Shown piece by piece: positions 14,504-52,867 of a DNA stretch of 64,000 nucleotides. Position numbers and translations under genes: made by a program. The DNA is from Lotus japonicus (taxonomy: Eukaryota; Streptophyta; Magnoliopsida; Fabales; Fabaceae): contig NC_080044.1 of assembly GCF_012489685.1 (NCBI RefSeq), forward strand, positions 47,802,964-47,866,963, written 5' to 3'. The notes under the pieces are model-generated. The model was not told the DNA's origin. It searched no databases and worked only from the letters and a program-made list of their open reading frames with translations. Numbering within the stretch: position 1 is the stretch's first letter; each line of letters opens with the position of its first letter.

Positions 14504-14602
14504 CAACTCCAACTCCCTCCCTACCTCACACACCAAACTGAAGCAACTAAGAGTAGCATTCCAAGAGTCTCTTAGTAGAGCTTCCAACAGCTTAATTTCT
14601 CA

Positions 14603-17094: not shown

Positions 17095-17330
17095 TTTTTT
17101 ATGAAAGGGGAAATGATACTATTGATAGAAGCCAAGAGAAAAATCTCAAGACCAAGTACACCCCACCCAGTAGTAGGGGGGTAGGAAAAAGCATCCGAAA
17201 AACTACAGCAAGATACAAAAGCACTAAAACAACATAGATGGAACAAGATAACAACAGGGGAGAACCTAGGGGACTAATAAGTACAGCAGTATAAAACACC
17301 AACTCCATAACAGATCAGCAAAATCACCCC
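17095..17330 (-). mobile_element. 3' end of a minus-strand LINE
   Basis: On the minus strand the sequence runs into CCCCTTTCATAAAAAATG near 17095-17110, a LINE-like 3' UTR end with a short A tail. The other part of the LINE resumes at about 40043. The two are split by the nested stack that begins at 17331, and ACCCC at 17326-17330 is duplicated at 40038-40042. Confidence 0.6.
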
Positions 17331-17380
17331 TGTAAGACCCTAACCTTTACTATGTAATGCTTAAGTGATTTATTTAATAA
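17331..17380 (+). repeat. 5' stub of family-B LTR 'B2'
   Basis: TGTAAGACCCTAACC at 17331 is a family-B LTR start (compare 28968, and 37288 read on the minus strand). It is preceded by the target copy ACCCC. Only about 50 bp remain before the sequence becomes the family-A LTR at an AACCCCCCTTA junction. The rest of B2 is at 38456-40037. Confidence 0.75.
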
Positions 17381-19542
17381 ACCCCCCTTACCTTTAACCT
17401 TTACCAACTAAGGATCTTGTAGGTCTGAGATTGTTCCCTCTGCATCACTGATTATGCTAGGGTTATGATTGGGCTAATCAAATTATCAAATTATTTATTA
17501 CTATTATCATTATCACTATTATTATTATTATTATTACTATAATTATCTAAATCATTAAACTATTAAACTAGTACCATTCTAACTTAACCTTGGTCTCAAC
17601 TAACTAGGGTGTGACCTTATACCTTCATGTCCACTAATCTGACCTAATCATTTTTGAGTCATTAGACCATCTACTTAGCTTAATTACTAATCCAAAATAC
17701 CATAACTTAATTATTTAGTCATATTATGCAAACTAATTTCATTTTTAATAGCTAAATTCCATAACTCTTTCCACATCATTATTTCTGACCTCAGGTCCTA
17801 CACTATCATCAATCTCCTGACCTTGTTATTCCTAAGTCATTAGCTTACTGATCTCACTTAAGTTTAAAATGTTACTATTTAATTATTTCAATTATCTAAG
17901 CCACATTATGCAAATTAAAATAACTAGGCTATAACTTCTAAGTCTTACCTATTTTTCCAATGGTCTCAGGTTCTGTTAGTCACAAGTTTCCAGTCTCAGC
18001 TTATAATCAGATTCAGAATCACTTATTTTAAGCACTTAATTCAAAGTCTACTTGCAAACTATGAAATCTATAAACTGAACCTAAAACTAACATCTAAGAG
18101 TCCATTCCTATAGCTTTCTACCTCCTGAGTTCAATGGAACCATTAATTTCAGCTTCTGAGCACTATAACAGCTCCAATTAGCCATTTCCGAAGCTGGTCG
18201 AGAGGTGAGATTGGGGCTTTTCACCTCCGGGCTCAATCATCAATTCTAACTATCCTAAAAGCTCCTATCATCTTTCTGAAGCATAAACCAAACTTGTTTG
18301 CATGCCAATTCGCCCTCAGAAGCTCAACCCGATAGCTTCTTCGAGCTTCAAAAACCATGTATTGGTTCTCTCGATTCCTAACGATTCATGGCTCTAAACT
18401 AGTCTAAAGCTTCCTAACTATGTCCTAACATGCTTAAGGGTACAATTTGGATGGAAATCGAGCTAAAACGAGCAAGTTGCAGAACTTACTCATCGGAGAA
18501 GACGATTCTCGCCGGAGAAGACGATCGGAGATTCCTAGATTGTCACCGTCGTGCTATTCCGGGTACTGGAACTTGATCTACAGGCTTTGGGGAGTTGAAT
18601 GGTGATCGTGGGTGTCGCTGAAGTGCTCGGAGATGGGAGAAAGGGTGAGTTACAGGTCGGGGACTCGCCGGAGCTTCGCCGAAGATGGTGAATCCCTTGA
18701 TTCTCGACCAAAGCTTGACCAAAATGACTCGATTCTCTTGCTCTCCTCTCCAGAAACTCAATGGGACAAGAATTAGGTCCTAACTCTCTTTGGTTTGAGA
18801 GATTCGAAGGGGTGAAGTTCAAGAACTTCCTCTCGGTCTCTCCCTCTTTCTGGCCTCTCTAGGTACTCTCTGAACGTTCTAGGGCACTCTGTGGGTAGCT
18901 AGGGTCGCGTGGAGTCGAGTGGTAAGCTTTAAATAGGCTGTAGGCTGATTAATTTGCTAAATCAAGCTGAAGCCTAATCAAAGTTGCACCACCAATGGTT
19001 TTTCATGCATGAGGCTTATCCTAGGGCTTGATGTTGCGTGGCTACAGCTTGGGGACGTCCAGAAGCAATCAGAAGTGAGGTTTGCATGGTGTAATGGCTG
19101 ATTGCATGCCTAGGTCATTTGCACACAAATCCTAGGGCTCCGATTGGTCGATTTCTTTATCATTTCCCATGTCGGGACAAAACTGATGCAATATTATACT
19201 GGTTCAGGTCTGTTAGTGCTAAATTAGAGTGTATTTCCCCTCTCAAGGTTCAATATCATCTCTTTTGAGTGATTAGGGTATCACTTTTTTAGCTTGATTC
19301 GGGTTTCGATCACTCTGAGACAATGCATCTATCATTGCCAAGAGATGTGACCAGATCATCTATTTAGCCCTATCCTACCTCTATCTCGAGTTCATCTTTT
19401 TATTGGGGTTATTACGACCATGTCTTTGGTACTTCTAATGCCGGGTCGATTTCAAGTCGATTGACCGACGTCTCGATTTACGTGCAAACAAGTACTATAA
19501 TAAAATATCACACATACACGCATACACACACACACACACACT

Positions 19543-19576
<34 letters not shown>

Positions 19577-19771
19577 CTATAATAAAATATCACACATACA
19601 CGCATACACACACACACACATTCACACACACACACACACAGATATATATATATATATATATATATCATATGTATATAGTATAGTTATACTATTAGCTCAT
19701 ATTCACCTATTCCGACTTTCTATGGTTTCGCGTCGCCTATAAGGTCTTTACTTGGTTGGTGGGATGTTACA
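17381..19771 (-). repeat. 3' LTR of family-A Tekay-like element, truncated
   Basis: Read on the minus strand it starts TGTAACATCCCACC next to the purine tract and runs to 17381. It matches 33153-34260 plus 37294-38455 closely. About 2.1 kb that the 5' LTR has at its primer-site end, including an ORF, is missing here. The loss coincides with the missing part of B2, so one deletion probably removed both. Confidence 0.8.
19500..19665. repeat. (CA)n(TA)n microsatellite, duplicated unit
   Basis: Two CA-rich then TA-rich blocks, each preceded by CTATAATAAAATATCACAC, where the sister LTR (38280-38351) has one. This is a local duplication of about 78 bp since the two LTRs were made. Confidence 0.85.
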
Positions 19772-27089: not shown

Positions 27090-27575
27090 GTTTTAGTGCT
27101 GGTGTGAGCTCCTCGAGATGGGATTAGTGTAGGAGTAGAGTCTTAGCTCTGGCCGTCATTGTTTTCTTTGGGGACAGGGTAGTTTCCCACCTATAGCTTT
27201 TTGTGTGGTTTCTTTACGGGAATCATAGAGAGTTGGTTAGACTTAGGAGGTCTTGTTTTAGGCCATCTGGGCTAACTCGTTCTCATTTTTGAGGGTTGTG
27301 TTGCGGACACTTAACCTTTCCTTTTGGATTGTACTTATTGCCTCCGGGCGTTACTCTCTTTTACTTTCCGTCACTGGAGATTACTCGTGACGAGGTTGGG
27401 TACTTACGGCGGGGGCTGTAATTATTAATGCATATTAGTTCTATTATCTTTTGTCGTCTAGTTTTATTTCTTTCAGTTTTGGTTCTATTATCGACGAGAA
27501 AAATATATTCACGTTTTTCCGCTTAAACTTTCTTTTTGGTTACTAAAGTGACGCCATCGAAATCGGGGTGTTACA

Positions 27576-28076: not shown

Positions 28077-28188
28077 CTTTTCCTGAAATTCACAAGGTGA
28101 TTAGTTTCCTATGCCCTTAACTACCTATTCTAGACTCCCTAGTAGGCTCTTACCCTAGGCCGACGAATCACTGCTCTGATACCAACTC
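28077..28188 (-). promoter_or_regulatory. Leader and primer-binding site of the family-A element
   Basis: The minus strand has TGGTATCAGAGC (plus 28173-28184), the initiator tRNA-Met type primer site, four bases from the LTR end at 28189. The rest is the short leader before gag. Confidence 0.88.
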
Positions 28189-28587: not shown

Positions 28588-31500
28588 TCATCCCCTCGGA
28601 TCTTCCTCCTCCGGATCCTCCTTACTGACTCCCCCACTGGCAGCTGGCACTGACACTGGCTTTGACATAGGACCCTGCTCTGACTCTCTGTCTCCGAACG
28701 CCTCGCCTCTCTGGAATCTGCGACGGTAAACTCTGGCATCTCGGGAGAATCTAGGGGATCTCACCCTCTTGCGGGCCGTGACCCGAAAGCAAGACAAGTT
28801 CCTCCGGGGTGGAGGAGATCCCATAGACTCGTGGGTCTGCGGAACTCTCTGATCAGGAGATCCCTGTGGGCTCACCACGGTGACTGGTAAGGCTGGGACA
28901 GGCTCTTCGGTCTCCATAGGCTCGCCTGCCAGTGGGTATGGCACCTGTGGGCTGCCGGGACTCTGTGTGTAAGGCCCTAAACTCATTTTATACTATTCAA
29001 GTGGAAAATTGAATAAAAATGAAGGTTTTGACAAGGTTTGAGTTTTGACAGATTCTGGCTGTCACCTTGCGCGAATATTTATAGGGTCTTAACGACCTCA
29101 TTTGGGAAAACTTCCCTCATGAGAGTTGTAGCCCTTTAAGTTAAGAAAATTCTCCAAGTGGTTTCCGGTCATTCCGATCTCTGTAGCTCGAGATATCCTA
29201 GTTTTAGTGACGATGGTTTTGGCTGTACAGTGCCAGCGGATTAATTGTTTAATTTCTCTTTTAATTCCGATTTTACTTTTATTTTTAATGAAAATGGATT
29301 AAATTTTCATTTAGTTCAGACCTGCTTAAGTGTGTGATTAGTGGGTCTAGGGCTTGCCTTGTTTTGGGCTTAAAAAGAAGAAAAATCAAACCCTAGCCCA
29401 TCTATAGTGTAGCCGCATGTTGACAAGGGGTGAAGGGGGGAAAGAAACCCTTATTTTTCCTCCTCATGCAGAAATAGAAGTGTTGCACTCACGTAAGAAA
29501 AACAGAAGAGAAGAAAAGAAAAGAAAGAAGAGAGAAAGAAGGGAGAGGCCGAGAGAGAGAATCGAGTAAGAGAGGGAGAAGAAGAGAGGGAGCAGCCGAG
29601 AGAGAGGGAAAGGAAAGGAGAGGAGACTTGAAGAGAAGGCAGCAGCAGCCCTAGAGTTTGATCTAGAGCCGCCGCCACCTCCTTGCACCCTAGCATCGCC
29701 GGCTGCCGCACGCACGAGGAAAGGAAGCTGCGCGAGAGAGAGAGAGAGATCGAGGGGACGAGAGGGAGAGATCGAGTGGAGATGAAAGAAAGGGACTGGA
29801 CAGCAGCTGTTAGGTTGTTTCTACAGCAAAGAATCCTTCTTTTCATCAAGGTTTTGAGCAAGGTAAGGGCTGGTCTTAGGAACGGGTAGATGCCTAGAAT
29901 GTTGCCATGAATTTCTATGAGGAAAAGTGATGATCTTGAAGGTTTACGCATGATGTTTTGTGAATATAATTGTTGCTGGAATTTTTGTGCAGTGAACACA
30001 TGCTTATTAATCTATATTTGATGTACTTGCCATGGATTTATGATTTTATGTGAAACTCATATGATAACTTGCTAGTTTTGGCTTACTTTTCATTTGTTTC
30101 CAACATGATGTTTGATGATTGATCAGATCTGGAAATTTTGGGTAATTAGATTGATGGTTGAGGGCTGATCTAAGGCTAGTGCACTTGAAAAGGAAGAAGG
30201 AAATGTTTGCGAAAAACCCTAGAGCCATGTGCATGGTTCGGCCGAACCTAGTTTTAGGGTTCAGGCCATTCCTCTTCTTCGTTTTCATGCACCGGTTGTT
30301 AGACATCCCGTTTGGTTAACTTGCCATGTTTATGTGTTTGAGGAGCATGCGAGTATGGTTAGGGATACTTATGTGTTATGAATATTGCCTGACTGAGGAA
30401 CCATGAGTCGCTCATCTAGCTGTAATTCCCATTGGTGTTGTGAATATCTATTGTCGTTATTATTATTATTTGTCGTTAAAGTTGATAAGACTCTAGGACT
30501 GACTTTAGAGCGTTAAAAACAAAGAGAATGAGACTTAACTCGCTTGCAAGTAAATGTGATTAATCGAACATAGGTCTAGTGAAGACTATGGGCCATGAGA
30601 ACGATGGTGTTGTTAGAGACAAACGGTAGCTTGCACGCGAGGGAGATTTTGTGGATCGGTGGATCCTCGTGATTTGGTTGAATGCGGTCACCGTGAGAAT
30701 TGTGAATTGTGGATCATTACGTATGTACATCTGCGGATGTATGTGATTGGCCAAGGTGTTTTGGTGGGTTGTGTGAAGTGAGGATCCGTTAGCCTAACTG
30801 ACTAACTGTTAATTAAATCCCTTAAGAGATAATAAATCCACAAGAATTGATTATTGTTTATATTGTTTTCCTGTCGACCTGACCCTTGCATTGTTTGTTA
30901 TGTGTCTTATTTTGGGGGGGGGGGGGTAGATGGTGCTGACCACGATGACGGTTCACGCCAGTTCCTGGGTGATGAGACTAAATGACCAAGACAATGACCG
31001 AGTCTGGACGGCCGACGCGTCTGGAGTTTGCAGGGTTTATGTCGGCAACGTGGCACTCACAGGACGTGACAAGCTGGGCAATATTGTGGAGGAGCAATTC
31101 ATAAGCGGAGAAGTCATAGAGATGCCTTTTCCACCGGCACGGTTCCACTGCCCGGAAGACGAAGAGTCCAGAGTTTCTTCGGAGGAGACAAATCCTTCAG
31201 AGGAGACGACTGTGGATTTCCGACCAGTGATTGCAGAGCCTGTTCTTCCAGATCCTGTTGTCGAAGCACCGCCAAAGAAAAGACAATGCAGATGGCTTGA
31301 AGGTTCTGAGGGCGACACAATTGTGACTAAGAAGCCCTGAGCTTGTACTTTGGGGATCCTGGGAGTGGTTACGTCGATTTTGATTTATTTGCTTGTTGGA
31401 TATTTTAAAAATGGTTTAGTGGTTTCTATTTCACAGATATTTGGATGATTACTTTTCATATGTGGTTTTTTTTCACACATGGGTGTGACCACCACGTTTA

Positions 31501-31936
31501 CTTCCAGTACTTTATGGTTACAAGGTTCGTTTACGAGTTTTATTTCCGCATGTTTCTTTTGGTTATTGGTTTATGATGTTAATTAAAGAACTTTATAAAA
31601 TCAACGACGATTTGTCACTAAGTAAAGAGTAATAAATGAATCGACGAAAATTCTTTACGAAAACTACGTCATTTGGTTACTGCGGGACACTCGAGAAATC
31701 GGGGCGTTACACTGTGGACCAACATGCTGAGCATGGGTCGGCAGAAAGAATGAGAACACCATAGGGAGTGTCACGGGAAAGCCGATATGCCCTGCTCCTG
31801 GATTCCTGCACCACAAAATTGTGAGTCCTTGGTAAAAGCAGTATCCTGTGACTGGGTCAACATGCCAGCCAGCACGGGACGGGAAATCAGCGTGGATCAC
31901 GAGGACTGGAGGGATGCTCATTGTCACACCTGTCAT
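28588..31936 (-). CDS. LTR-encoded ORF of family A (~199 codons), interrupted by solo LTR B1
   Basis: Two minus-strand parts, 31936-31712 and 28962-28588, are separated by the B1 solo LTR. If B1 and one target copy are ignored, the frame runs through without a stop (75 plus 124 codons). The first part starts MTGVTMSIPPVLVIHADF and includes GWHVDPVTGYCFYQGL. The second is Pro/Ser/Arg-rich (RNLSCFRVTARKRVRSPRFS) and ends in an acidic tail SKEDPEEEDPRG. A TGACCCTTGC-like box (31958-31970, complement) lies about 22-40 bp upstream. A second copy at 51738-51845 keeps the acidic tail and the same stop position. I do not recognise the family. Confidence 0.5.
28968..31711 (+). mobile_element. Family-B solo LTR 'B1', TSD CTGTG
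   Basis: Starts TGTAAGGCCCTAAAC, ends CGGGGCGTTACA and is flanked by CTGTG at 28963-28967 and 31712-31716. Length 2744 bp. It holds a GAGA-rich stretch (29510-29770), the box CCTGACCCTTGC (30878-30889), a 13-G run and the ORF at 30930. A single LTR between perfect target copies means recombination between two LTRs removed the body. Confidence 0.93.
30930..31340 (+). CDS. LTR-encoded ORF of family B, intact copy (136 aa)
   Basis: An uninterrupted frame inside solo LTR B1, starting three bases after a run of 13 G. The N-terminal block (RVWTADASGVCRVYVGNVAL, then GRDKLGNIVEEQ and MPFPPARFHCPEDEE) is shared at the protein level with ORFs in B2 and B3, with many DNA differences. The middle is Ser/Glu/Pro-rich. 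The tail has a basic patch KKRQCRWLEGSEGD, seen as KKRPRNCGWLDE in B3 and KKRRLEEEVIEVSSGDED in B2, and could be a nuclear localisation signal. The shared start, block order and tail suggest a real gene of the parent element rather than a chance frame. No known family is recognised; the position in an LTR is unusual. Confidence 0.6.
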   Translation: MVLTTMTVHASSWVMRLNDQDNDRVWTADASGVCRVYVGNVALTGRDKLGNIVEEQFISGEVIEMPFPPARFHCPEDEESRVSSEETNPSEETTVDFRPVIAEPVLPDPVVEAPPKKRQCRWLEGSEGDTIVTKKP

Positions 31937-34260
31937 TTGTTTTTTATAAAAATAAGTGCAAGGGTGAGTCACACGCAACTTTGCACAATAATACACATCA
32001 GATAAGATAAGCATTAAAACTCAAGCCAACATACCATTAATTACACACATGTTAGCAAACACAAGTTATAATGCACTATGGTTAAGTCTACCTTATATCT
32101 TCGTCTTTCGAATTGAATTCTCTCACTACTTCGTAGGAAATGGTGAGTTCATCGCCAACCTTTTTATTTATTTTCTTTATCATGTGATGAGTATGATTTA
32201 AGAGCCCGAAGCTATCGCTTCGTTATCTTTGAAAAGTCGTCTCGAGAACATGGACACTCCTTACAGTCCACTCTTTACCGGACAATGATCGCTCAGTAGC
32301 TCACAGACTTAAGTACACGACGCAACTCTTTGCCTTAAACATCATGCCAATCCCGACCTCAGGGGTCCTGACGAGACAGACATGAGAGGTGTACTGCCGT
32401 GTAAATCCCGGGTCAATTCATCTCTGAACATGACCACCTTTGGCGTCTCTGTATTCCCACTCTCTTAGTGGTAGTGACAGTACTTTCCTACTCCTTATTG
32501 CTCCTTAAGTGTGTTTTCAAGTATCAATCGTCTCCCCCTTATACTTCCATTAAGTTTCTAATAAATTAGAAACGAGCATCTGTTGCCTTACGTCGAGTAA
32601 GTACACCAAAAGTATTATAGAGGTGAGATCTTAAATAAGATCAGGTAGTTTTAGGAATGCAGGCGGGAACTCTAATCCGCCATTTAATGGTTATGTACTT
32701 TTAATTGCTTAGAGAAAAGGGCTCACTTGCCAATCCCATTATTATTATTAATTCATTTACTCTATCTATCCTATGGGTAACCCTAAGGCGTTATAGGTGG
32801 GTAAATTTTTCAAACGCAAGTACCAATAACTCATTAAATCAGGGATTATCCTTTCCCTCTTCCCACTACCTCAGATGCTTCAATGTATCAGAGACAATCC
32901 TGATATCATGCCACTCAGGCCCATTAATCCTAAGTACCACTATATCCCATAGCGTACTATCATCCCTTTCTAATGTGAATCATTCAAGCACGAATCACAA
33001 TCATAGCAATTCAGCACAACAATTCATCTAACGTTCAATCTTCAAGCACAACATCCAATCAAGCATCCAATAACACATAAGCAAGTAATAATATGCTTTC
33101 TATCGTAATAACGATTAACTTATGAGTTGTGTACCAAGACAAGGTCTAGTATAACCCCCCTTAACTTTAACCTTTACCAACTGATCTTGTAGGTCTGAGA
33201 TTGTTCCCTCTGCATCATTGATTATGCTAGGGTTATGATTGGGCTAATCAAATTATCAAATTATTTATTACTATTATCATTATCACAATTATTATTATTA
33301 TTACTATAATTATCTAAATCATTAAACTATTAAACTAGTACCATTCTAACTTAACCTTGGTCTCAACTAACTAGGGTGTGACCTTATACCTTCATGTCCA
33401 CTAAACTGACCTAATCATTTTGGAGTCATTAGACTATCCACTTAGCTTAATTACTAATCCAAAATACCATAACTTAATTATTTAGTCATATTATGCAAAC
33501 AAATTTCATTTTTAATAGCTAAATTCCATAACTCTTTCCACATCATTATTTCTGACCTCAGGTCCTGCACTATCATCAATCTCCTGACCTTGTTATTCCT
33601 AAGTCATTAGCTTACTAATCTCACTTAAGTTTAAAATGTTACTATTTAATTATTTCAATTATCTAAGCCACATTATGCAAATTAAATTAATAACTAGGCT
33701 ATAACTTCTAAGTCCTACCTATTTTTCCAATGGTCTCACGTTCTGTTAGTCACAAGTTTCCAGTCTCAGCTTATAATCAGATTCAGAATCACTTATTTTA
33801 AGCACTTAATTCAAAGTCTACTTGCAAACTAAGAAATCTATAAACTGAACCTAAAACTAACATCTAAGAGTCCATTCCTATAGTTTTCTACCTCCTGAGT
33901 TCAATGGAACCATCAATTTCAGCTTCTGAGCACCGTAACAACTCCAATTAGCCATTTCCGAAGCTGGCCGAGAGGTGAGATTGGGGCTTTTCACCTTCGG
34001 GCTCAATCATCAATTCTAACTATCCTAAAAGCTCCTATCATCTTTTAGAAGCATAAACCAATCTTGTTTGCATGCCAATTCGCCCTCAGAAGCTCAACCC
34101 GATAGCTTCTTCGAGCTTCAAAAACTATGTATTGGTTCTCTCGATTCCTAACGATTCATGGCTCTAAACTAGTCTAAAGCTTCCTAACTATGTCCTAACA
34201 TGCTTAAGGGTACAATTTGGATCGAAATCGAGCTAAAACGAGCAAGTTGCAGAACTTACT

Positions 34261-37200
34261 TGTAACGCCCCGATTTCTCGAGTGTCACACAGTAAACCAA
34301 ACGTCACCATTTTTGTAAAGAATTTTTGTCGTTCAATTATTAATCTTGATTTAATGACAAAAGTTCAATTATTGCGAAACATAAAACTTTACGAATAAAT
34401 TTGCGAAAAAAATAAGACATGCATTTTTGAATAAAATAACTCTTAATCAAAAGAACCATAAATCAAAAGTACATAAATGAAACCTTGGGCTAAAACCCTA
34501 CATCAAAGTACATCAAAAGAACCCGAAAGTAAATACTGATAAATAATAGTTCAGCACTACGAAACACTCAACCCCCAGCATAGCAATATCAATCACTCGT
34601 CAAGCCATCCGCAGTTCCTGGGACGCTTCTTCAAAGGAGCCTTGTCTTCCGCCACAAACTCCACTGGTGCAACAACTACACCAATGGGCAGGGGAACAAC
34701 AGTCTCAGGTAGGGACTCTGGAGCCGGGACTGAAAGGTCGCCAAGACGTGCCCACCAGTCTGGTACCTCGAACGCCCGTGAAGAACCCTCCTCTCTTGCA
34801 GCCCGCTATGGAGAGTTCGAGCAAGAACCCTCGACTCCTGGGTGTAAGAAGCGGCAAGGTGCAAAGGGCAGCTTTACCTTGCCCCACTCCATGATCTGAG
34901 TCTCGACGACGTTCCCATGCCGGTCACGTCCCTTGATCGTAGCTCTGTCGACGTAGATGCGACGTACCTGGGCAGAGTCAGTCTGCCAGGCGTTTTCCTT
35001 GTGCTGATCATGTAAATCTATGGTCCACGAGACCACTGCACTCTTGACCTTCACCATATGGGCCCCCCCCCCCAGAATAACACATAAACAAATAACAGGG
35101 TCAGATCTCATGTTCTCATATAAACATTCACATATTCATGTAACTCTCATAAATAACAAGATTTAATAAAGATAATCTTTAAGTTATATCACCGTTAGTC
35201 ACCTAAGTCCAGTTAGGCTAACGACCTCACCATTCACACTACCACCTCAACATCAATGGCCAAATCACGATCATCCGCAGATGAACAATTCTCGGAGGGG
35301 ACACACCGTAAAGCCCTCTATCACGTGGGGACACACCGTACAACCCACAAAATCTCAAGGTGACCGCAGTCAACCAAATCATGTGGGGACACAACGTACA
35401 ACCCACAAACACCCTCGCGTGCAAGTAATCGTTTGTCTCTAACGGTACCATCATTCTCATGGTCCATATTCATCACTAGACCTATGTTCCAATTACATCA
35501 CATTTTACTTGCAAGCGATTAAGTCTCAATTCTCTTTGTTAGGGCTCTAATAGTCAACCTAGAGTCTTAACATTTTCACAAGACTTACACAAGTGAATCA
35601 CAGTAATAACCACAGCACCAAAAGGAATTACAGCTAGATGAGCGACCTTTTGGCGATATCCCAATTAAGCAAATATAAGCTATACTAAGCACGTAGTCAT
35701 GTTGACAAGCTTAATCACACATAATTCATAGCATCTCCTAATCACATGTTCCTAAACAAGACTACAAACATTTTCGCAACTTAGCTTTTGACAGCAGAAA
35801 CAACATTCATTGAAACTGGTCTACAGAACGCGTCTTCCAACCAAAAATCATGTATGATACCTTTCTGGAAAGCTATTTTAAAGGTCTACAACTCTCGAGT
35901 TAAACACTTTTTCATTTGAGCCCCAGAATTAGGTGATATTAGGCCTTGAAGCTTTCTGTCCGACACAGGGAAAAACAGCCGGTGCAACAGTTACTAAAAA
36001 CGACCTACAGCACACATTATCAAACCAAAATTTATGATCTTTATATGTATGGAAAGCTTTTTCGAAAATCTACAACTTTCACTTTAATCACGTCTTCATT
36101 TGACGAACAGAAATATGTGAAAATAGGCCCTGAAGTTTTACTGTCCAGCACAGAAATCTGACAGGGAATGCATTTGCCATCAATTTCGTTTTAGCCATTC
36201 TATTCTAAAGGTTCTAAGTCATATACTAGCATCAAGGGTCATATAACATGCATCATATTTCATGCCAAATTTTCCAGACCCATGATAACCATCCATTCCA
36301 GCACAAAAGGCAAATCTAAGCATATGAATCTTCAATCATTTTAATCAAGCAAAATCATAGAAGAAATGATAATTATAGTGATGATTAAAGGAGTATCATG
36401 GCATCAACATTTCATCTCAACTCAGCAGCAAAACATCTTGATCACAAAGCAACATAACAGCCCATGCCCTTCATACAACATACAACAACAAACATCACCA
36501 ACTCAAGTCCTAAGCATGCAAGACTCTACCCAACTAGATCCACCCTTACCTTAGTCTTAGTGTTTTGAGAAGAATAGGTGAAGATGAATGATTCAAAGAG
36601 AATGATCCTTGCTCCCTTCTCCTTGCTCGAAATCTCCTCCTCACCCTTGCTCCACCACGGCTTCTTCTCCTTCTTCTTCTTCTTCTTTCCTTCTTTTCTT
36701 CTTCTTCTCTTCCACGACCTTCCTCTCTCTCTCTCACTCTTTCTTTCTTTCTTTCTTTTGCTGAATGTGTGAAGTGATGAAAATGTGAAGAGGGTTTCTA
36801 ATTCTTCTCTCCTTTTGTTCACTCCAAAATCTGAAAATCTCTCCCCCTTTTACCCTCAAACCCGCGGCCTATACACACTCCAAGGGCATTCACAACCTTT
36901 TCTTTCAATTTGAAATGAGACATGAAATTAATGCTCATCAATTTCTCATTATTCCCTCAACAAAACTGATTTGCATTGACTAAGGAGACATAACCCCCAA
37001 ATCATTACCACAACTTAAGCACAACCAAGTCAAACAAGTCTTCCCTCATTCCTTCCTCATGGGATTCGGCCATGGCACCATGCTTGGCCTCCAAGCAACT
37101 CAAACTTATTCATCTTGGGATCCTTGACCTTATAAAAATTATATCATAGCCCTTAAGTACAATTATCACTTTCATATTAATAATACTTCACACTACAAAG

Positions 37201-37288
37201 CATCAAGGAAATTCACAAATCATAAGCAAACCATACTTTATTATTTATTCAAAATAAATAATTTCATACATCAAGGTAGGGTCTTACA
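34261..37288 (-). mobile_element. Family-B solo LTR 'B3', minus orientation, TSD TTACT
   Basis: Read on the minus strand it starts TGTAAGACCCTACC (37288) and ends CGGGGCGTTACA (34261), flanked by TTACT at 34256-34260 and 37289-37293. Length 3028 bp. The undisturbed sister LTR at 18480-18500 shows the empty site. It carries a (GAAAGA)n-like purine stretch (36660-36770), an ORF relic and an 11-base C run on the plus strand (35063-35073). Confidence 0.93.
34593..35057 (-). pseudogene. LTR-encoded ORF of family B, copy in B3 (frameshifted)
   Basis: Starts at the ATG at 35057, six bases after an 11-G run (minus strand): MVKVKSAVVSW. The conserved block follows (NAWQTDSAQVRRIYVD, GRDRHGNVVETQ, LPFAPCRFLHPGVE). 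A stop occurs at 34806, but after a frame change the C-terminus reappears at 34593-34640 with LKKRPRNCGWLDE and a stop. It is the same protein as at 30930 and 39128, inactivated. Confidence 0.65.
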
Positions 37289-38303
37289 TTACTCGCCGAA
37301 GAAGATGATCGGAGAGTCCTAGATTGTCACCGCCGTGCTATTTCGGGTACTGGAACTTGATCTACATGCTTTGGGGAGTTGAATGGCGATCGTGGGTGTC
37401 GCTGAAGTGCTCGGAGATGGGAGAAAGGGTGAGTTACAGGTCGGGGACTCGCCGGAGCTTCGCCTGAGATGGTGAATCCCTTGTTTCTCGACCAAAGCTT
37501 GACCAAAATGACTCGATTCTCTTCCTCTCCTCTCCAGAAACTCAATGGGACAAGAATTAGGTCCTAACTCTCTCTGGTTTGAGAGATTCGAAGGGGTGAA
37601 GTTCAAGAACTTCCTCTCGGTCTCTCCTTCTTCCTGGGCTCTCTGGGTACTCTCTGAACGTTCTAGGACACTCTGTGGGTAGCTAGGGTCGCGTGGAGTC
37701 GAGTGGTAAACTTTAAATAGGTTGTAGGGTGATTAATTTGCTAAATCAAGCTTAAGCCTAATAAAAGTTGCACCACCAATGGTTTTTCATGCATGGGGCT
37801 TATCCTAGGGCTTGAGCTTGCGTGGCTGCTGATTGGGGACGTCCAGAAGCATTAGAAGTGAGGTTTGCATGGTGTAATTGCTGATTGCATGCCTAGGTCA
37901 TTTGCACACAAATACTAGGGCTCCGATTGGTCGATTTCTTTATCATTTTCCATGTCGGGACAAAACTGATGCAATATTATACTGCTTCAGGTCTGTTAGT
38001 GCTAAATTAGAGTTTATTTCCCCTCTGAAGGTTCAATATCATCTCTTTTGAGTGATTAGGGTATCACTTTTTTAGCTTGATTCGGGTTTCGATCACTCTG
38101 AGACAATGCATCTATCATTGCCAAGAGATGTGACCAGATCATCTATTTAGCCCTATCCTACCTCTATCTCGAGTTCATCTTCTTATTGGGGTTATTACGA
38201 CCATGTCTTTGGTACTTCTATTGCCGGGTCGATTTAAAGTCGATTGAAAGACGTCTCGATTTACGTGCAAACAAGTACTATAATAAAATATCACACATAC
38301 ACG

Positions 38304-38352
<49 letters not shown>

Positions 38353-38455
38353 TTCATATGTATATAGTATAGTTATTAGCTCATATTCACCTATTCCGAC
38401 TTTCTAGGGTTTCGCGTCGCCTATGAGGTCTTTACCTGGTTGGTGGGATGTTACA

Positions 38456-40037
38456 GGCCGAACCCTATTTTTGTGGGTTCGGTGAATTCTTTTCTTTCGC
38501 TTGGATGCATGAGTCTTACGATGTTTTATCTGATGATTTTGCCACGATCTGTCATTCATGAGGATGTGTTTTATGATGTTCATTCGAATAACCATTCAAA
38601 GGGTCGCTCATCTAGCTGTAATTCCCGATGTGACTGTGATTGTTATATCGTTATATTTATTCGATGCATGTGTAAGACTCTAGGTTAATGTTAGAGCCTT
38701 AACCAAGAGAATGAGATTAATCGCTTGCAAGTAAACGAGAAATAATGGAACATAGGTCTAGGTGAGACTATCTACCATGAGAACGATGGAGTCGTTAGAG
38801 ACAAACGGTAGCTTGCACGCGAGGGAGATTTTGTGGATCATTGCGGCTCCATGTGATTTGGTTGATTGCGGTCATCGTGAGACTTGTGTTTGTGGATCAT
38901 TGCGAATCCACGTGATTGTACATCTGCGGATGTATGTGATTGGCCAAGGAGTTTTGGTGGGTTGTGTGATGTGAGGATGCACTAGTCTAACTGACTAACT
39001 GTCATAAAACTTAAATTACATAAACGATTACTATGCTTTATGATATGGATTATGATTATGTTATTTGCGACCTGACCCTTGCGCTACTTGTTTATTTGTT
39101 ATTTGTGGGGGGGGGGGGGAGGGGTAGATGGTTCTAACGAAGACCACAACGTCGACCCATTCCTAGAAACTGACGTTGCTTCATGAGAATGAAGATCGGG
39201 TTTGGGCGACCGACACGTCCGGAGTTCGACGAGTCTATGTCGGCGATGCAAGGCTTACAAGTAGAGATGTGCATGGGAATGTCGTGGAGACACAACATAT
39301 GGCGGGTGGAGTCATCACTATGCCATATCCACCTCCACGTTTCTTTTACCCGAAGGATGAATGCTCTCAAGTTGCATCAGTGGTAAGCGATCCCTCAGAA
39401 CTAGCAGCAGCTGAGTCCCAGCGACTGGTCGAGCAATTCATTGTCCCAACACAGGTTCAAGCTGAGGAGCCAAAGCATAATGATAATGCTGAGGTGAATG
39501 GGTGAGTTCCTGAAATACCAGCTTGGTGGGGTGACATGGAAGCTTGCTGTGTATTCGGTCAGTTTGAGGCTCCACCACTTGAGTCGCTACCGCCAGTCAA
39601 GAAGCGTCGTCTCGAGGAGGAGGTCATTGAGGTTTCCAGTGGAGACGAGGATAGGGTTTGGAGATTTCTAGTTTTGGAACTTGTGAGCGATGCATCGAAT
39701 TTAATGATTTACTTATTTTGTCAAACTATGTTATGGCTTGATATTTCATTCCAAATGTAATGAGTTTATAGTTTTGGCACTCGGTTAATTTTAAATTCAC
39801 ACATGGGTGTGAGGACCATCTTTATCTATATGATTGTAAGTATTTATTCAGTTGATTAATTAAAAGTTTTGCGTTATCGATTACTTCCGCGAGTTTTTGA
39901 AAAGGTTAAGTTTCAAGAGTTTTCGTAAAATGAACCTTTGTCATTTAATTGAAGATTAATAATTGAATCGACGAAAATTCTTTACGAAAATTGGTTACAT
40001 GGTTACTGTGTGACACTCGAGAAATCGGGGCGTTACA
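38456..40037 (+). mobile_element. 3' part of family-B LTR 'B2', TSD ACCCC
   Basis: Continues a family-B LTR (GGGTCGCTCATCTAGCTGTA matches B1 near 30405) and ends CGGGGCGTTACA at 40037. It is followed by ACCCC (40038-40042), the copy of 17326-17330. Its 5' stub is at 17331-17380. The family-A element inserted in it. Confidence 0.88.
39128..39655 (+). pseudogene. LTR-encoded ORF of family B, copy in B2 (nonsense and frameshift)
   Basis: The ATG at 39128 lies a few bases after a 13-G run. A TAG at codon 13 falls where B1 and B3 have Trp. The conserved block follows (DRVWATDTSGVRRVYVGDAR, DVHGNVVETQ, MPYPPPRFFYPKDE). After a stop at 39503, the C-terminus continues with APPLESLPPVKKRRLEEEVI then EVSSGDED: a basic patch followed by a hydrophobic-acidic segment that looks like a SUMO-interaction motif. 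Confidence 0.65.
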
Positions 40038-40042
40038 ACCCC

Positions 40043-42242: not shown

Positions 42243-45200
42243 TTTAAGACCCAAATAAATTTAGCGTTTAATTAACTAGTTATTTATCGGCTTAAGAGCG
42301 ATAAGCGCTATTAAGTTTAAGTTGATGTGTTTATTATGCCTTGTATATTTATATAATTCTATTAGGACTATTAATTTCTTACTTGAAGAAAAAAAGAAAA
42401 GAAAAGAAAAGTTCAAGTTTGAGAAATGGCTTAATTGCAACTTTGGTCCTCGACGTTTACCAATGCCACGATTTTGGTCCCCCACGTAATTTAATTACGT
42501 GGATGGTCCCTGACGTTGTAGGTCGTGTGCAACGTTAGTCCTACCGTTTATTTCTTAATGGAGGAGGCTTACGTGGACGTCCAGTTGGAGAGAGAAAGGA
42601 GGTATGAGGAGAGAGGGAAGCACGTGAGTATCACGTGACCCTTATCTGAACCCATTATACCCAAACCCCTGACCTCCCTGGAACGAAGATGGTAACGCGA
42701 TTTAAATCCCTAGGGTTTCAGATTTGGGTATAATGGGTTCATATAAGGTTCACGTGAGTTCACGTGATACTCACGTGCTTCCCTCTCTCCTCAGATCTCC
42801 TTTTTCTCTCCAACTAGACATCTACATAAGCCTCCTCCATTAAGAAATAAACAGTAGGACTAACGTTGCACACGGCCTACAACGTCGGGGACCATCCATG
42901 TAATTAAATTAGGTGGGGGACCAAAATCGTGGCATTGGTAAACGTGAGTGGCTTAAAATGAACAAGAAGAAAACAACAAAATTAAAGAAAGAAAAAGATA
43001 TGTAATTAGCAAGTATATATGTATATCTAGGTTGTTAACACTTCTATATTCGATCACTTAAATTTTTTCAAAGTGATTTTAAATTATATCATAGAGTCCC
43101 TAATAATTTTTAGGATGATGATTCATCTTTCTAATATTTTTTTTATAGCTCTATGAGTCAAATCCTACACTACTAAAACCATTCTATACTTAAATACATA
43201 TTTCTATATGTATACTTCTCTCATATTAGTAAGAAAGGATTTATAAAAAAAATAGATTGAAGCTGGAGGGGTCTTGAACGTGGAGCGTTCAGCATGAGGT
43301 GTAAATAAATAGCATGACAAGGATTTCAAAAACAAAACGTGTCCAACCTTAAGCTACCACCACCCATGCACTTTCCACCACCTCCTTAAACATGTTGGAC
43401 GTGGCACTTGCTAGTGATTTCTTCACTCTTAAGCATTGAGCATTCATGCCTATATAAGGCAGAAACATGAAGGCTTCAGCAACCCCCACAAAACTATATT
43501 GGCACACAATATCCACAATAGCAATAGTTACTTGGGTAAATGCTATTTGAGTTCATTAGTTTTTAGTGAAAATTCTTGGTATTTGTCTTGAGTGTGAGGA
43601 GATTCTTGAGTTTTGGGAGCGGAAGTTAGGATCTTGAAGCTTAGCAATTTTCAAAGCGATGAATTTTATAAGGATACAAAGTGCAAGATTGCATTCGTGT
43701 CGGAGCTAAAAAAAATGGAAGGAAAGCAAGCCGCTACGAGGAGCGATGACGTGATCGAAGCAGAGTCACAACTTAGGAGGGAAAGTAGCTAAGGTGAGGG
43801 CACTTCGCTTCGGCTATTTATATTATTGAATATATGCTATATGCTTGTTGTGAGGACTATTCTCTTAGTCTATTTATATCGTTGAATATATGCTATATGA
43901 TTGTTGTGAGAGCACCTTGATGCTTGCTATTTCATAAAATGACTTGTTGTGATGATGTTTGTACTTTCATTGTGATATTTGATTATCTATTAACGGCCTA
44001 TCGCTTGTGTAACCGGAGGGTTTTTCCGAGTGTCGGTTAGAGGAGACTCTAACTATGCTTTAGATTTACTGTGATTTTCGATCAAGAGGTTTTCTCAAAA
44101 AGATTTATAATGGGTGGGATCTTTTATTTAATTTACCAAAGTTTTCGAAAAGGAACAAACCTATTCATGATTTACATATAAAACTTCATCTAAACTAAAT
44201 AATCAAAGTGAATACATATTTTGTAAATTAAAAGAGAGTTTATTTGCATTGCAAAACTTTTAAAGAATGGGAAGGATGTTTTCAAAGGGGCTTAAATCCT
44301 TTTTTTTTAGAAAAAAAAAAGAATTTCAAAGGGGGTCTTATTTGGTGGCTTAGATGAAAGAAAGACGAGACTCGCGACACAGTTACTTGGAGTGGAATGA
44401 CCTATCGTAGTGTAAACTTCGGTCACTTGGAGCGGAGTGCAACCGTTGATGATGAATCTAGATTGGTTTTCTCGTATGACCGTTTTCTTAGAGATAGACG
44501 TGAAGACTGGAGAGGGTGTTCCCGTTTGTTTGGCTAACCATGATTCATATCATGCATGCATACATTTTGTTAGGATGGTGGAGTGGCCATGCCTGTCTTC
44601 TGAAGACGATGGAGTGGTCGTACCTTCAGATGTTGATAATGGAGAGGTTATCAACTATGTTGTTACTGGAGTGGGTATCAACTAAGTGGCATTCACTAGT
44701 CAGAGGTCGATACTGGAGTGGGTATCAGGCCGACTAAGTGTTGTCCCGCCTACCTCATAGGGAAATGGTGTTTATATCCGGATCATTTGATGTACCTCTG
44801 TGGCATTGCTTTTGCACGAGCATATAGACTAACCTTAGGGTTGTCGATTGAGCTTGATATGTGCTATGAGTTTTGATATGCTTGAGATAAGCTAAATGTT
44901 ATTTAATTGTTATGTGTGTGGGAGAGGTATGTCATGGACAACCCTCATATTTTACGTAAGTCACGTGATCGATAGATCTGCGTGTGTGAGCGTGAAACGT
45001 ATAAGTATGTGATTATGTGTATACTGTGTGACCTACTATAATATATATACTTATATTCTGGAAGTTGATCCTCGCACGCCATTGTATGTATTGCTTGTGT
45101 TTGGGCAGCCGACGACTGCCAGGTGATGGGCGACTGCCAGGCGATGGGCGACGACATGATCAAGTACCATGCTTTTGGGGAAGTCGCAGTGGTGCTGCTG

Positions 45201-49400: not shown

Positions 49401-50255
49401 ATTATGATGACTTATCTTAATTTCTGAGGTTGATCTTGATGGTTTATAACCATTAAGGAGATTGAGTTTAACTTGTGATTTCGTCGAGCCAATTGCTTGA
49501 GAGTGTAGCTTTAGACTTGGAAAGTAGGTAGCTCAATTAGTGATTATGTTATGTGTACTTATGAAGGGTACGAATAACTGAAGCGCTTGACGACGAAGCC
49601 AAAGAACAAACGGAAGTGAGCCAACACGGGAAAGCAAAGATATGACTGGATTTGATTTGAGTCGCAACTTAGTAAGGAAAGCGCCTAAGGTGAGGGCAAC
49701 TTACTATTAGCTATGACTGCATGATAGGCGTCGATAAATTCGACTTATGCTTTACTTTGATGTTGATTATGTTGATGAACTGATGTTATGATGTTTTCCA
49801 TAATTGATGATGTTGAGATGTTATTGAATTGTGCGCTTTGACGCAACTTCGGAGTGGGGATTCATTGAACTGGTGTTGTTTGATATTTCAGGTTGGATGA
49901 ACAACCCTAGGCAAGTTCAAACGTGGGGTTTGAGGCTTAGCCATTGGTTGGTATTCGTTGGAATACTTAGACTTTCCCCGGGAAATTTCTTTTGGTGGGT
50001 TTTTGGAAAACTTAGAATGAATAGAATTTCGAAAACTAAAGACCTTAGAGAACTTAGTTTTCAAAGAATTAAACTCATAACCTGACTAATTCAATTTAAA
50101 ACGTTTTCATGATTAAATGAACCATAGGGAACCTAAAGGGGAAAATAATTGCGAAAGACGGGGAAAAGTCGACTTTTGTTGTGGGTTTTGGAGGATTGCT
50201 AGACACCAGGGGGAGGTGAGCCACGGTGATGATCGAAAGTCACCGAGTACTCTAG

Positions 50256-50465
50256 TACTCTTATTATTGGAGTTGTGTTGTATTGACCGACACTAACTCT
50301 GGGTTTTGACTTTGGGTTTTGTTGTTGGAGTTGTGTTGTATTGACCGACACTAAACTCCCGAGAACTTTAGTACTCTTGTTTGTTGGAGTTGTGTTGTAT
50401 TGACCGACACTAACTCTAGGTTTTGGTTGTTGGAGTTGTGTTGTATTGACCGACACTAACTCTTG
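50256..50465. repeat. Minisatellite 1 in LTR E
   Basis: Four units of about 45-60 bp sharing TTGGAGTTGTGTTGTATTGA and CCGACACTAACTC, spaced by variable GGTTTTG-type linkers. Confidence 0.88.
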
Positions 50466-50549
50466 GGTTTTTGAGATTGGGTTTTGAGCTAAACACTTGT
50501 GTTGTGAGGTCGATTCGATGTTTGGCTAACCATATTGCATCATGCATCA

Positions 50550-50760
50550 TTTGGTGAAGAACGGGAATGCTTCACTGATGCATTATTCGATGAGGAACGG
50601 GAATGCTTCATCGATGGTGAGGAACGGGAATGCTTCACCAATGCATCATTTGACGAAGAACGGGAATGCTTCGTCAAGGATGAAGAACGGGAATGCTTCA
50701 TCCATAGTGAAGAACGGGAATGCTTCACTAGTGGCGAACGGGAATGCGTCACAATTATCC
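50550..50760. repeat. Minisatellite 2 in LTR E
   Basis: Seven copies of the core (G)AACGGGAATGC(T/G)TC at 20-36 bp spacing, giving parallel frames on both strands that are repeat artefacts. Confidence 0.9.
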
Positions 50761-51240
50761 GGATCATATTGAATTGCATTTCACGCATACATTCACTCTG
50801 ACTGGAATTGTATGCTATTTGAATTATTGAAGCATTGTTAGAGCCAATAACATGCTAGGATTATTTATATATATATATATATAAACATATATATCTATAC
50901 CCCTTTTGTCGCATGTTGCTTGTATATCTATTGTATACTGTGAGTTGACCCTCGCGCCTTGGCTTTGGTTGTATGTTTGTGTTTGGGCGGTCGGCCTGCT
51001 GCCAGACGACGAAAGGAGGTGATGTGAGCAGATGCTACTCCACGTGGAAGATCTATAGAAGACTCGAAGAATAGAGTCGGGTGTAGGGCAAGAGCCTTTG
51101 GGTAGAAAAACTTACCGTTATTGGTTTAAGCTTGTAGGATAATTTTATGATTCGCATTTGAGGTTTTGGGTAGGTTCCGGTGCATTGCTTTCCTATGGTT
51201 ACCCGGTGTGGAAATCATAGGGAGTATATCGGATCTATGG

Positions 51241-51845
51241 AGTCATTGCATAGTGAGTCCGTCCTTCCCAAAGATCCTCAACTTAGATTTCTCTAGTATG
51301 CTCCTTCCCTAGGCCAAAGAATCATTACTCTAATACCAACTCCTGTGGCGTCCCCCTTCCACAAGTGACGTATTCGTCCAACTCCTATCACTTATGAATG
51401 AGTGAGCCGTTTTTTTTTTTTTTGTCGCATTAGTGTTAGTGTTAGTGTTACCGTTCTAATGATGCATCGATTCAGAGACCTTTTACGACTTCTCACAGTC
51501 GCAGAGTTCCCCTCTAACCTTTTCAGATGGATGACCGTATACATAAAGGCAAGCAAGTTAGCACACAATAAAGCATTAAACACATAGCATACGTGGCGAA
51601 GGTCACTATAAAGTTCGAATGACAGAAGCCAATAGAGTGTTCAACTGAGGGTATACACATTCCTCCACAAGGCATCATCAAACAAAAACTTAATTAATTA
51701 AGAGAACTAGTGTGAACTATCATCGGACCATACGACTTCACTCCCCAACCTCCTCCTCTTCCGGATCCTCTTCCATGTCACCACTGCTCCCCTCCTCCGG
51801 CACTGGCATAGGCACCCTCTCCCCCAATCCGTCGGGTTTCACGGA
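51241..51845 (-). mobile_element. Second family-A fragment: leader, primer site and LTR tail
   Basis: Minus strand: leader, degraded primer site TGGTATTAGAGT (plus 51327-51338) and LTR end at 51344 (plus TGTGGCGTCCCCC, compare 28189). The LTR tail to about 51845 includes the acidic C-terminus of the family-A LTR ORF (stop at 51738). It is then joined directly to integrase. Confidence 0.75.
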
Positions 51846-51854
51846 CCGCTGTCA

Positions 51855-52867
51855 TCAGTATGTCTTCCGCATATCTTCTTCCAACTCCCACGTAGCTTCC
51901 CGGTCTTCCCCTTCTCCCCAAGCTACCTTTACTAATGGGATTTCTTTCTTCCTAAGTTTCTTCATCCTCCTATCTAATATCTGTTTAGGTTCTGCTGTGT
52001 ATGTTAGGTTTTCTCTAAGTTGTATATGTTCAGGTTTCATCACATGAGAGGGGTCAGGTATGTATCTTTTCATCTGGGACACATGAAAGACATCGTGCAA
52101 GTTTGACAACGAGGGTGGAAGGACTATCTGATAAGTTGATGCCCCCACTCTCCTAAGGATTTGATAAGGTCTTAAGAATTTAGGTGAGTTTCCTTGACCT
52201 TATAGATCTTCCTATCCCTGTGACCGGACTAATCCGAAGGAAAACATGATCTTCTTCCTCAAATTCTAAAGGCTTCCTTCTGCGGTCATAGTAAGCCTTT
52301 TGTCGGTCCTGTGCTATCCTCAGCTTCTCCCTAATCCTTTTTACTTTCTCGGACATCTCTTGTACCACTTCGGGTCCTAAGACTATCTTGTCTCCTTCGT
52401 CAAACCATCATAGTGGCGTCTTGCACTTCCTTCCATATAGCGCCTCGAAAGGTGCCATTCCTAAACTTGAGTGGAAACTATTATTGTAGGAAAATTCTAC
52501 CAATGGTAGGCAGTCTTCCCAGTTTCCTCGCTCTTCCAAAATGCAAGCTCTTAACATGTCCTCGAGTGTCTGGATCGTCCTTTCGGTATGTCCATCGGTT
52601 TGGGGATGATAAGCCGAGCTAAATCTTAAATTCGTTCCCAAAGCCTTGTGTAGACTCTTCCAGAATTGTGAAGTAAATCGCAGATCTCGGTCCGAAACTA
52701 TGCTTGTTGGTATTCCATGCAGTCTTACAACTTCTTTGATGTAAATCTTGGCCAACTTTTCCAATGAATATGTCATGTTAACCGCGATGAAATGTGCACA
52801 TTTTGTAAGTCGGTCCACAATTACCTAGATCGCGTCATTCTAAGCTTGCGTCTTAGGTAACTTTGTG
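51855..52867 (-). pseudogene. Second family-A fragment: integrase and chromodomain-like tail
   Basis: Minus-strand pieces of the same protein as at 19788-21000. 52818-52408 carries MDRLTKCAHFIAVNMTYSLE, SIVSDRDLRFTSQFWKSLHK and DGHTERTIQTLEDMLRACIL. 52368-52180 carries the linker, and 52148-51855 carries LHDVFHVSQMKRYIPD and LVKVAWGEGEDREATWELEE. Stops separate the pieces. It is cut at about 52867 by CACTA-like sequence. Confidence 0.9.

Follow-up and report, generated by a model that had tools for sequence, protein, structure and literature searches.

The 64,000-nucleotide stretch of the Lotus japonicus genome analysed here, hereafter the window, contains a nest of long terminal repeat (LTR) retrotransposons, both Ty3/gypsy and some copia. 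Three LTRs of one family, designated B1, B2 and B3, each carry an open reading frame (ORF) inside the repeat itself. This ORF and its copies elsewhere in the genome are described below. In window coordinates, the LTRs and their ORFs are the following.

28968..31711, plus strand: B1, complete solo LTR of 2744 bp, TGTAAGGCCC...GGGGCGTTACA, with terminal motifs and the 5-bp duplication CTGTG
30930..31340, plus strand: LTR ORF of B1, open, 136 amino acids
30914..30926, plus strand: 13 consecutive G immediately 5' of TAG-ATG in B1
31601..31711, plus strand: conserved LTR end of B1, 84-90% identity among B1, B2 and B3
34261..37288, minus strand: B3, complete solo LTR of 3028 bp within the LTR of element X, with terminal motifs and a TTACT duplication
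34593..35057, minus strand: LTR ORF of B3, ATG at 35057, end stop at 34593, one in-frame stop (codon 84)
38456..40037, plus strand: B2, the 3' portion of a third family-B LTR, with ACCCC at the outer edges
39128..39655, plus strand: LTR ORF of B2, ATG at 39128, frame interrupted by two stops, at codons 13 and 126

B1 and B3 start with TGTAAG(G/A)CCC and end with CTCGAGAAATCGGGGCGTTACA, and their first halves can hardly be aligned. The target duplication of B1 occupies 28963-28967 and 31712-31716, and that of B3 34256-34260 and 37289-37293; the B3 insertion site is intact in the other LTR of element X (copy at 17380-19771). The initial 49 bp of B2 are probably 17331-17379, with element X lying between, and ACCCC at 17326-17330 and 40038-40042 is a tentative B2 target duplication; we infer that element X interrupts B2. 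The three LTRs are thus separate insertions, as originally predicted, by the CTGTG, TTACT and, tentatively, ACCCC duplications. B1 and B2 were also considered as the LTR pair of one element; this was ruled out, as each has its own flanking duplication. Elsewhere in the window a related LTR has the same end, at 45756, and TTGTGGTATCAGAGC, a primer site for methionine transfer RNA (tRNA-Met), comes after it. Because such sites follow related LTR ends, the ORF strand is the LTR sense strand. An antisense ORF was considered since the LTR ends (TGTAAG.../...GCGTTACA) are nearly inverted repeats, and was excluded by the primer sites after ...GGGGCGTTACA.

Each ORF was found where it had been predicted, with the ATG at the same place in the three LTRs, and ends 330-380 bp short of the LTR end. 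The full openness of B1 was likewise borne out. A run of 11-13 G stands just 5' of the ATG in all three (39107-39119 in B2; 35073-35063, minus strand, in B3). A G-rich run before the start codon was also seen in most genome copies, with variable length and some interruptions. The frame of B2 and B3 runs on past their stops, because the parts beyond them (39506-39757, E 3.7e-8; 34596-34805, E 6.5e-9) match a profile that includes intact homologues. The predicted shared protein block is recovered as 22 invariant columns in the protein alignment of B1, B2 and B3, and Pfam scans agree that the ORF is neither gag nor pol.

Comparison of the three ORFs revealed a frame-specific signal. In a three-way DNA alignment made independently of the protein alignment, variable columns are distributed 49/39/67 over the codon positions of 82 codons (P=2.7e-5). 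In a sliding scan, a third-position excess of 0.31-0.32 occurs only within the ORF and in its own frame, with a maximum of 0.12 outside. Column shuffles of the 54-codon core gave, for all three pairs, P<=0.038 for identical residues and P<=0.0055 for the ratio of nonsynonymous to synonymous differences (pN/pS). It is this comparison, and not ORF length, that upholds the earlier claim that chance is unlikely: against dinucleotide shuffles only the B1 ORF is unusually long (P=0.005), and the longest open stretches of B3 (101 amino acids, P=0.085) and B2 (74 amino acids, P=0.22) are not significant.

Relatives of the protein are confined to Lotus in the databases searched. The B1 protein alone gave no match in a protein search. 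A protein profile built from B1, B2 and B3 gave three, all uncharacterized Lotus japonicus proteins (E 4e-45 to 8e-34), and a wider profile added no further relative in profile searches of 5.8 billion proteins. Nothing in Pfam exceeded the cut-off, none of the six members submitted to NCBIfam had a match, viral and prokaryotic contigs contained no relatives, and the PDB sequence search returned two weak matches only (E 0.09). The prediction that no described family would match has therefore stood in Pfam and NCBIfam, the three uncharacterized proteins being the only database relatives. One of them, P0001, is 100% identical to a locus of the genome (G000:C5:48028177-48028734), where it lies between the G-run-TAG-ATG and the LTR end.

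Many copies were detected in the genome itself. B1 DNA gave 39 matches, some of which are two pieces of one copy. With P0001 as the query, 1147 candidates were obtained, and 150 of the 150 scored match. Among these 150, stop-free frames occur in 28 of 62 near-complete matches (from residue 5 or earlier to residue 180 or later). The same 150 include a tight subfamily, E, with 29 matches and a frame of 134 amino acids (123 in one), stop-free in 26 by hand count. All 12 of the fetched E LTRs contain the open ORF. Twenty B1-like loci were also fetched, five of which (L011, L014, L015, L018 and L019) have a complete open ORF of 167-178 amino acids; L009 presents a shorter 136-residue form, and the remaining ones are broken or partial. 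In a further subfamily (L040-L044), none of the five loci is fully open. Mostly, the ORF comprises 134-186 codons and lies near the 3' end of an LTR that is usually 2.7-3.1 kb long.

The E elements are young, because their LTR pairs are nearly identical: 4, 8 and 22 mismatches were counted over 2923, 2917 and 2842 alignment columns, with the ORF open in both LTRs. Pair L065/L066 is 98.97% identical, has the CCAAG duplication on both outer sides and keeps both ORFs open; L069/L070 (99.76%) and L071/L072 (98.56%) are also open in both LTRs, and the alignment of L067 with L068 covers just 1882 of some 2900 bases. L013, L020, L022, L073 and L075 likewise have the terminal motifs and a target duplication. 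The LTR end is followed by TTGTGGTATCA(G/A)AG at 5/20, 2/5 and 4/12 loci, which sets the sense strand, and the primer-binding site of family copies is TTGTGGTATCAGAG. At the fetched E loci, the polypurine tract AAGGGGG(G/T)TGGTAT precedes the LTR starts. Internal regions encode gag, protease, reverse transcriptase, RNase H and integrase (Pfam, pieces of L029, L030 and L032). The host element therefore presents the plant Ty3/gypsy characters tested, i.e., TG...CA ends, a 5-bp duplication, a primer site, a polypurine tract and gag-pol domains. The Tekay lineage, in which a chromodomain is expected, would be its likely placement; an SH3_Tf2-1 domain was found after the integrase, whereas a scan of ten pieces at E<=0.01 yielded no chromodomain.

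Some LTRs of the family are of mixed or reduced structure. In L018/L019 and L011/L017, similarity sets in at about the ORF and continues to the LTR end, while the sequences 5' of it differ, and an ORF-plus-end module may have been exchanged between LTR types. L017 and L011, similar only from the ORF onward, were excluded as an LTR pair. Two short forms were observed. The LTR of L013 (2306-3502) measures 1197 bp and is flanked by a perfect CGAAT duplication; that of L074 (1671-3365) measures 1695 bp, and in it the intron proposed below is only 210 nt long, with donor and TAG-ATG retained.

With these copies, selection could be estimated as the ratio of nonsynonymous to synonymous rates (dN/dS). 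Over the first 84 codons, the Nei-Gojobori comparison of L014 with B1 gave dS 0.68 and dN 0.10 (ratio 0.15; position differences 9/8/27), and the ratio was 0.21 for L014-L028, 0.16 for B2-L028 and 0.31 for B1-L028. Comparison of B1 and L009 with L011, L014, L015, L018 and L019 over 132-135 codons gave 0.22-0.29, at dS 0.53-0.79, a level at which synonymous sites are unsaturated. A single-ratio codon model of 25 distinct open copies and 133 codons yielded 0.464, with a log-likelihood (lnL) of -2974.7 against -3001.8 at ratio 1 (2 x delta-lnL about 54); the likelihoods are the best of a coarse kappa grid. Of 53 loci, 28 keep the frame open over 130 or more codons counted from the start pattern, and the distinct sequences among these 28 are the copies modelled. 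They include L013, L047 and L060, open with a shortened or altered C-terminus, and lack L011, since the start pattern demanded ATGG. Choosing open copies excludes nonsense changes, which by itself does not lower dN/dS. Subset models, run without eight near-duplicates (seven E copies and L060), gave 0.40 for the N-terminal 84 codons (2 x delta-lnL 45.8), 0.57 for the C-terminal part (9.1; L065 also removed) and 0.37 for the B1-like group (17.4). A ratio near 1 across copies, named beforehand as the outcome that would refute a selected gene, was not found: the values between subfamilies are about 0.15-0.3 (0.31 at most), and the codon model rejects 1. The protein is under purifying selection between subfamilies.

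The region upstream of the ORF has an anatomy of its own, with the following features.

29863..30929, plus strand: proposed intron of B1, 1067 nt, donor AAG|GTAAGGG, ending in TAG right at the ATG
30879..30889, plus strand: B1 motif CTGACCCTTGC, branch-point-like, 51 nt 5' of the ATG
30407..30810, plus strand: B1 non-coding block common to all three LTRs, with stronger conservation than the ORF
35058..36549, minus strand: proposed intron of B3, 1492 nt, with the same donor and without TAG before the ATG

The donor (once TAG|, three times AAAG|) lies 5' of the ATG in 28 of 38 LTR loci, at 1.05-1.5 kb except in L074 (0.2 kb). It is common to B1 and B3 despite their poorly alignable first halves, and appeared in 7 and 5 of 2000 shuffles; the stretch 5' of it is purine-rich (0.55-0.74). 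In 19 of 20 B1-like loci and 11 of 12 E LTRs, the ATG stands immediately after TAG. In subfamily E, GGGGGCGGG takes the place of the G run. The motif YTSAYCCTYGC, compared with the branch-point consensus, is located 44-58 nt 5' of the ATG in 13 of 20 loci and occurs seven times in the window (0.44 expected). As a separate observation, it is found at a like place in several unlike LTRs (26877, 30879, 39072, 45065 and 50945, plus strand; 31968, minus strand); the seventh match, at 36640, is antisense in B3. Donor, branch-point-like motif and TAG-ATG suggest, at the level of sequence, a two-exon gene within the LTR, and splicing of the LTR transcript onto the ORF is a likely prediction from these signals.

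Within the proposed intron lies the non-coding block, with counterparts at 38603-39008 in B2 and 35646-35195 (minus strand) in B3. Its pairwise identity is 73-85%, while synonymous sites of the ORF are near saturation. The earlier claim of far greater divergence in the DNA than in the protein block accordingly stands for the ORF core (54-62% DNA identity) and fails for this upstream stretch, which is better conserved than the ORF. A profile of the wider B1 stretch 30407-30929 matches 29 of 32 other loci. Repeated and hairpin-like pieces were noticed in the block. In the three sequences, 7 of 91 base pairs are changed on both sides; because the covariation term is unfavourable (+2.03), no RNA structure is claimed. 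At the gathering score, the sole Rfam match in the window, snoR71, is elsewhere.

The protein begins with a conserved domain of about 75 residues, predicted mostly as beta strands (between residues 12 and 65, in poor models), followed by a variable linker that is in part proline-rich. The conserved block reads W-x2-D...(R/K)-(V/I)-Y-V...D-x2-G-N-(I/V)-V-E...P-(F/Y)-x-P-x-R-F. In representatives of five subfamilies 22 residues are invariant, and subfamily E differs from some block residues. Foldseek and VIA-align, applied to two poor models, gave weak scores only, for RNA polymerase beta' inserts, Sm proteins and TFIIA. KKR is present in the C-terminal half of 21 of 25 proteins. Because of this basic patch, the sole basis for the call, the protein is probably nuclear. 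Near the end, (L/I)IE(V/I)SSE occurs in 6 of 25 proteins, and B2, L059 and L063 have similar ends, VIEVSSGDED. SUMO-interaction motifs consist of a hydrophobic core followed by an acidic or serine stretch, and the acidic end LIEVSSED of some subfamilies could be described as SUMO-interaction-like.

Taken together, the LTRs of this large Ty3/gypsy family in Lotus japonicus probably contain a real gene for an LTR-encoded accessory protein. That the ORF is protein-coding and selected is almost certain. On balance, a complete small gene inside a plant LTR is favoured, with promoter, non-coding exon, intron and coding exon, so that solo LTRs could stay free-standing genes. Transcription from the LTR promoter would produce an RNA with a non-coding first exon, and splicing from AAG|GTAAGGG to TAG|ATG would join it to the coding exon, while RNA left unspliced would serve as genome and gag-pol message. 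In the nucleus, the protein might act as an accessory factor that raises its own element's expression, for example through binding to the conserved LTR block or by counteracting silencing. That the product is a nuclear regulator of its own LTR is the leading proposal for its role, though less likely than not.

Some observations weigh against such a gene. Just over half of the near-complete matches (34/62) are broken, B3 has no TAG before its ATG, pairs of recent copies show dN/dS of 0.41-0.78, on few changes, and the P0001-like group has a codon-model ratio of 0.71, not different from 1 (2 x delta-lnL 2.2). A lack of open frames in most intact LTRs had also been named as refuting and was likewise not found: the frame is open in E (26/29, and 12/12 when fetched) and in 28/62 near-complete copies, slightly more than half of the latter being broken.

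Among the other explanations, an upstream ORF in the 5' leader, controlling gag-pol translation or packaging with only loosely constrained amino acids, survives best and is still improbable. The ORF does lie in the part of the LTR that adjoins the primer-binding site, ahead of gag, and the non-coding block beside it shows the stronger conservation of the two. Such a leader ORF would need no conserved 75-residue domain, however, and amino-acid constraint extends over about 84 codons. It is slightly less probable that a host gene or fragment was captured by the LTR and that the constraint is inherited from its past as a host gene. An anatomy like that of a gene, with 5' leader, proposed intron and coding exon, and the annotation of three copies as ordinary Lotus proteins would fit, but those three are the only relatives among the 5.8 billion proteins and belong to no Pfam family, the constraint is observed between element subfamilies, and P0001, the sole database copy placed here, sits in an LTR. 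Just as unlikely is an ancestral element gene that is no longer needed, selected in the past and now decaying. The broken near-complete copies and the ratio within one subfamily that does not differ from 1 would agree with decay. Yet broken old solo LTRs are the expectation for dead copies, and the ORF is open in all 12 fetched LTRs of young elements, with LTR pairs 98.6-99.8% identical. The high dN/dS of recent copies is likewise as expected for dead copies and by itself gives no support. A chance ORF in conserved non-coding LTR DNA, for which the conserved non-coding stretches nearby and the ordinary length of the B2 and B3 open stretches might be cited, is very improbable given the frame-specific third-position signal, the same protein block in five subfamilies and the exclusion of ratio 1 by the codon model.

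A selected gene inside the LTR would have several consequences. In plants, LTRs are regarded as non-coding, and it is common to mask them ahead of a gene search. If the gene is real, solo LTRs, which are common relics, can go on making an element-encoded protein, and each insertion brings two gene copies, so that the element would spread its own regulator through the genome in many copies. Such a gene would also offer one tangible explanation for the great length of some LTRs. The question bears on the interplay of retrotransposons and host silencing and is testable in a model legume with young copies. Plant elements with large LTRs may commonly contain genes of this kind; if so, these have gone unnoticed through the masking of LTRs and the filtering of short ORFs.

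The remark in the original prediction that LTRs normally code for nothing has to be qualified, since LTR-encoded proteins are known outside plants. The sag gene of mouse mammary tumour virus encodes a vertebrate superantigen in sense within the LTR, in U3, and hence in both LTRs. It is the nearest analogue of the Lotus ORF, also in sense within the LTR; unlike sag, the Lotus ORF is located near the LTR 3' end, in a plant. Proteins of the sag type come from a spliced mRNA, and in this respect the Lotus LTRs show shared candidate donor and acceptor sites. In the open-access literature searched, no plant LTR-encoded protein is named in titles or abstract openings. Extra ORFs of plant LTR elements are a known class. 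The rice elements Retrosat2, RIRE3, RIRE8 and FRetro3 carry ORF0, a short, fast-evolving extra sense ORF 5' of gag-pol, which is described as limited to the grass family and as having an unknown role in transposition (PMC3485330, PMC4093653). From the mean Ka and Ks quoted there, a Ka/Ks of about 0.16 was computed here. The Lotus element resembles Retrosat2 in its LTRs of about 3 kb and its short extra sense ORF 5' of gag-pol; unlike the Lotus ORF, ORF0 is described as lying outside the LTR, between the 5' LTR and gag-pol (PMC3485330, PMC4093653). The aORF or eORF proteins of Grande (gene23), RIRE2, Retand and PvRetro13 are described as extra conserved proteins without clear similarity to others, some of them nuclear (PMC7264820, PMC6317226, PMC4093653). 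The Lotus ORF would likewise be an extra conserved protein beyond gag-pol. Those ORFs, as described, reside in the internal region in either orientation, mostly downstream of pol and ahead of the 3' LTR, whereas the Lotus ORF precedes the LTR end and primer site (PMC7264820, PMC6317226, PMC4093653). The large aORF survey counted only ORFs of at least 250 codons (PMC6317226), and the Lotus gene, with 134-186 codons, would have escaped it because of this minimum. A selected and apparently intron-bearing gene inside the LTR is likewise not named in the titles and abstract openings of the open-access literature searched.

Other LTRs of the window also contain ORFs at a similar position.

31718..31921, minus strand: first piece of the sense LTR ORF of element Y, the host of B1
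28588..28967, minus strand: second piece of the Y ORF, continuing the frame of the first on the other side of B1
about 51350-51857, minus strand: LTR Z, sharing an acidic C-terminus and stop with Y (67% over 91 bp)

The Y ORF ends about 390 bp before the end of the Y LTR, which is followed by a tRNA-Met primer site at 28184 and gag at 28076-27546, both on the minus strand. The Y and Z ORFs (Z: 51720-51857, minus strand) have acidic C-termini, EDPEEED and EDPEEEE, with the same stop and a position like that of the B ORF. Homology of the Y ORF to the B ORF was considered and is unsupported (hhalign E 0.46, no profile match); only the position and YTSAYCCTYGC agree. If the Y and Z ORFs are real, more than one family has genes in its LTRs.

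Further features were noted in passing. A very young, high-copy LTR family (L029:5478-6248) gave 2507 candidates, and all 40 that were scored show 100% identity over 370 bp. Numerous copies form pairs about 7.7 kb apart, and the LTR resembles LTR sequence of the window at 50235-51012 (75%) and the end of the LTR at 27575. An inverted repeat at 42453-42945, with 186-nt arms that are 94% complementary and 121 nt apart, has the appearance of a foldback-like element. The open frame at 14579-15793 contains a Hydrophobic_seed domain and an internal repeat array, and is probably a host gene for a proline-rich protein. At 646-752 lies snoR71, a C/D box small nucleolar RNA.

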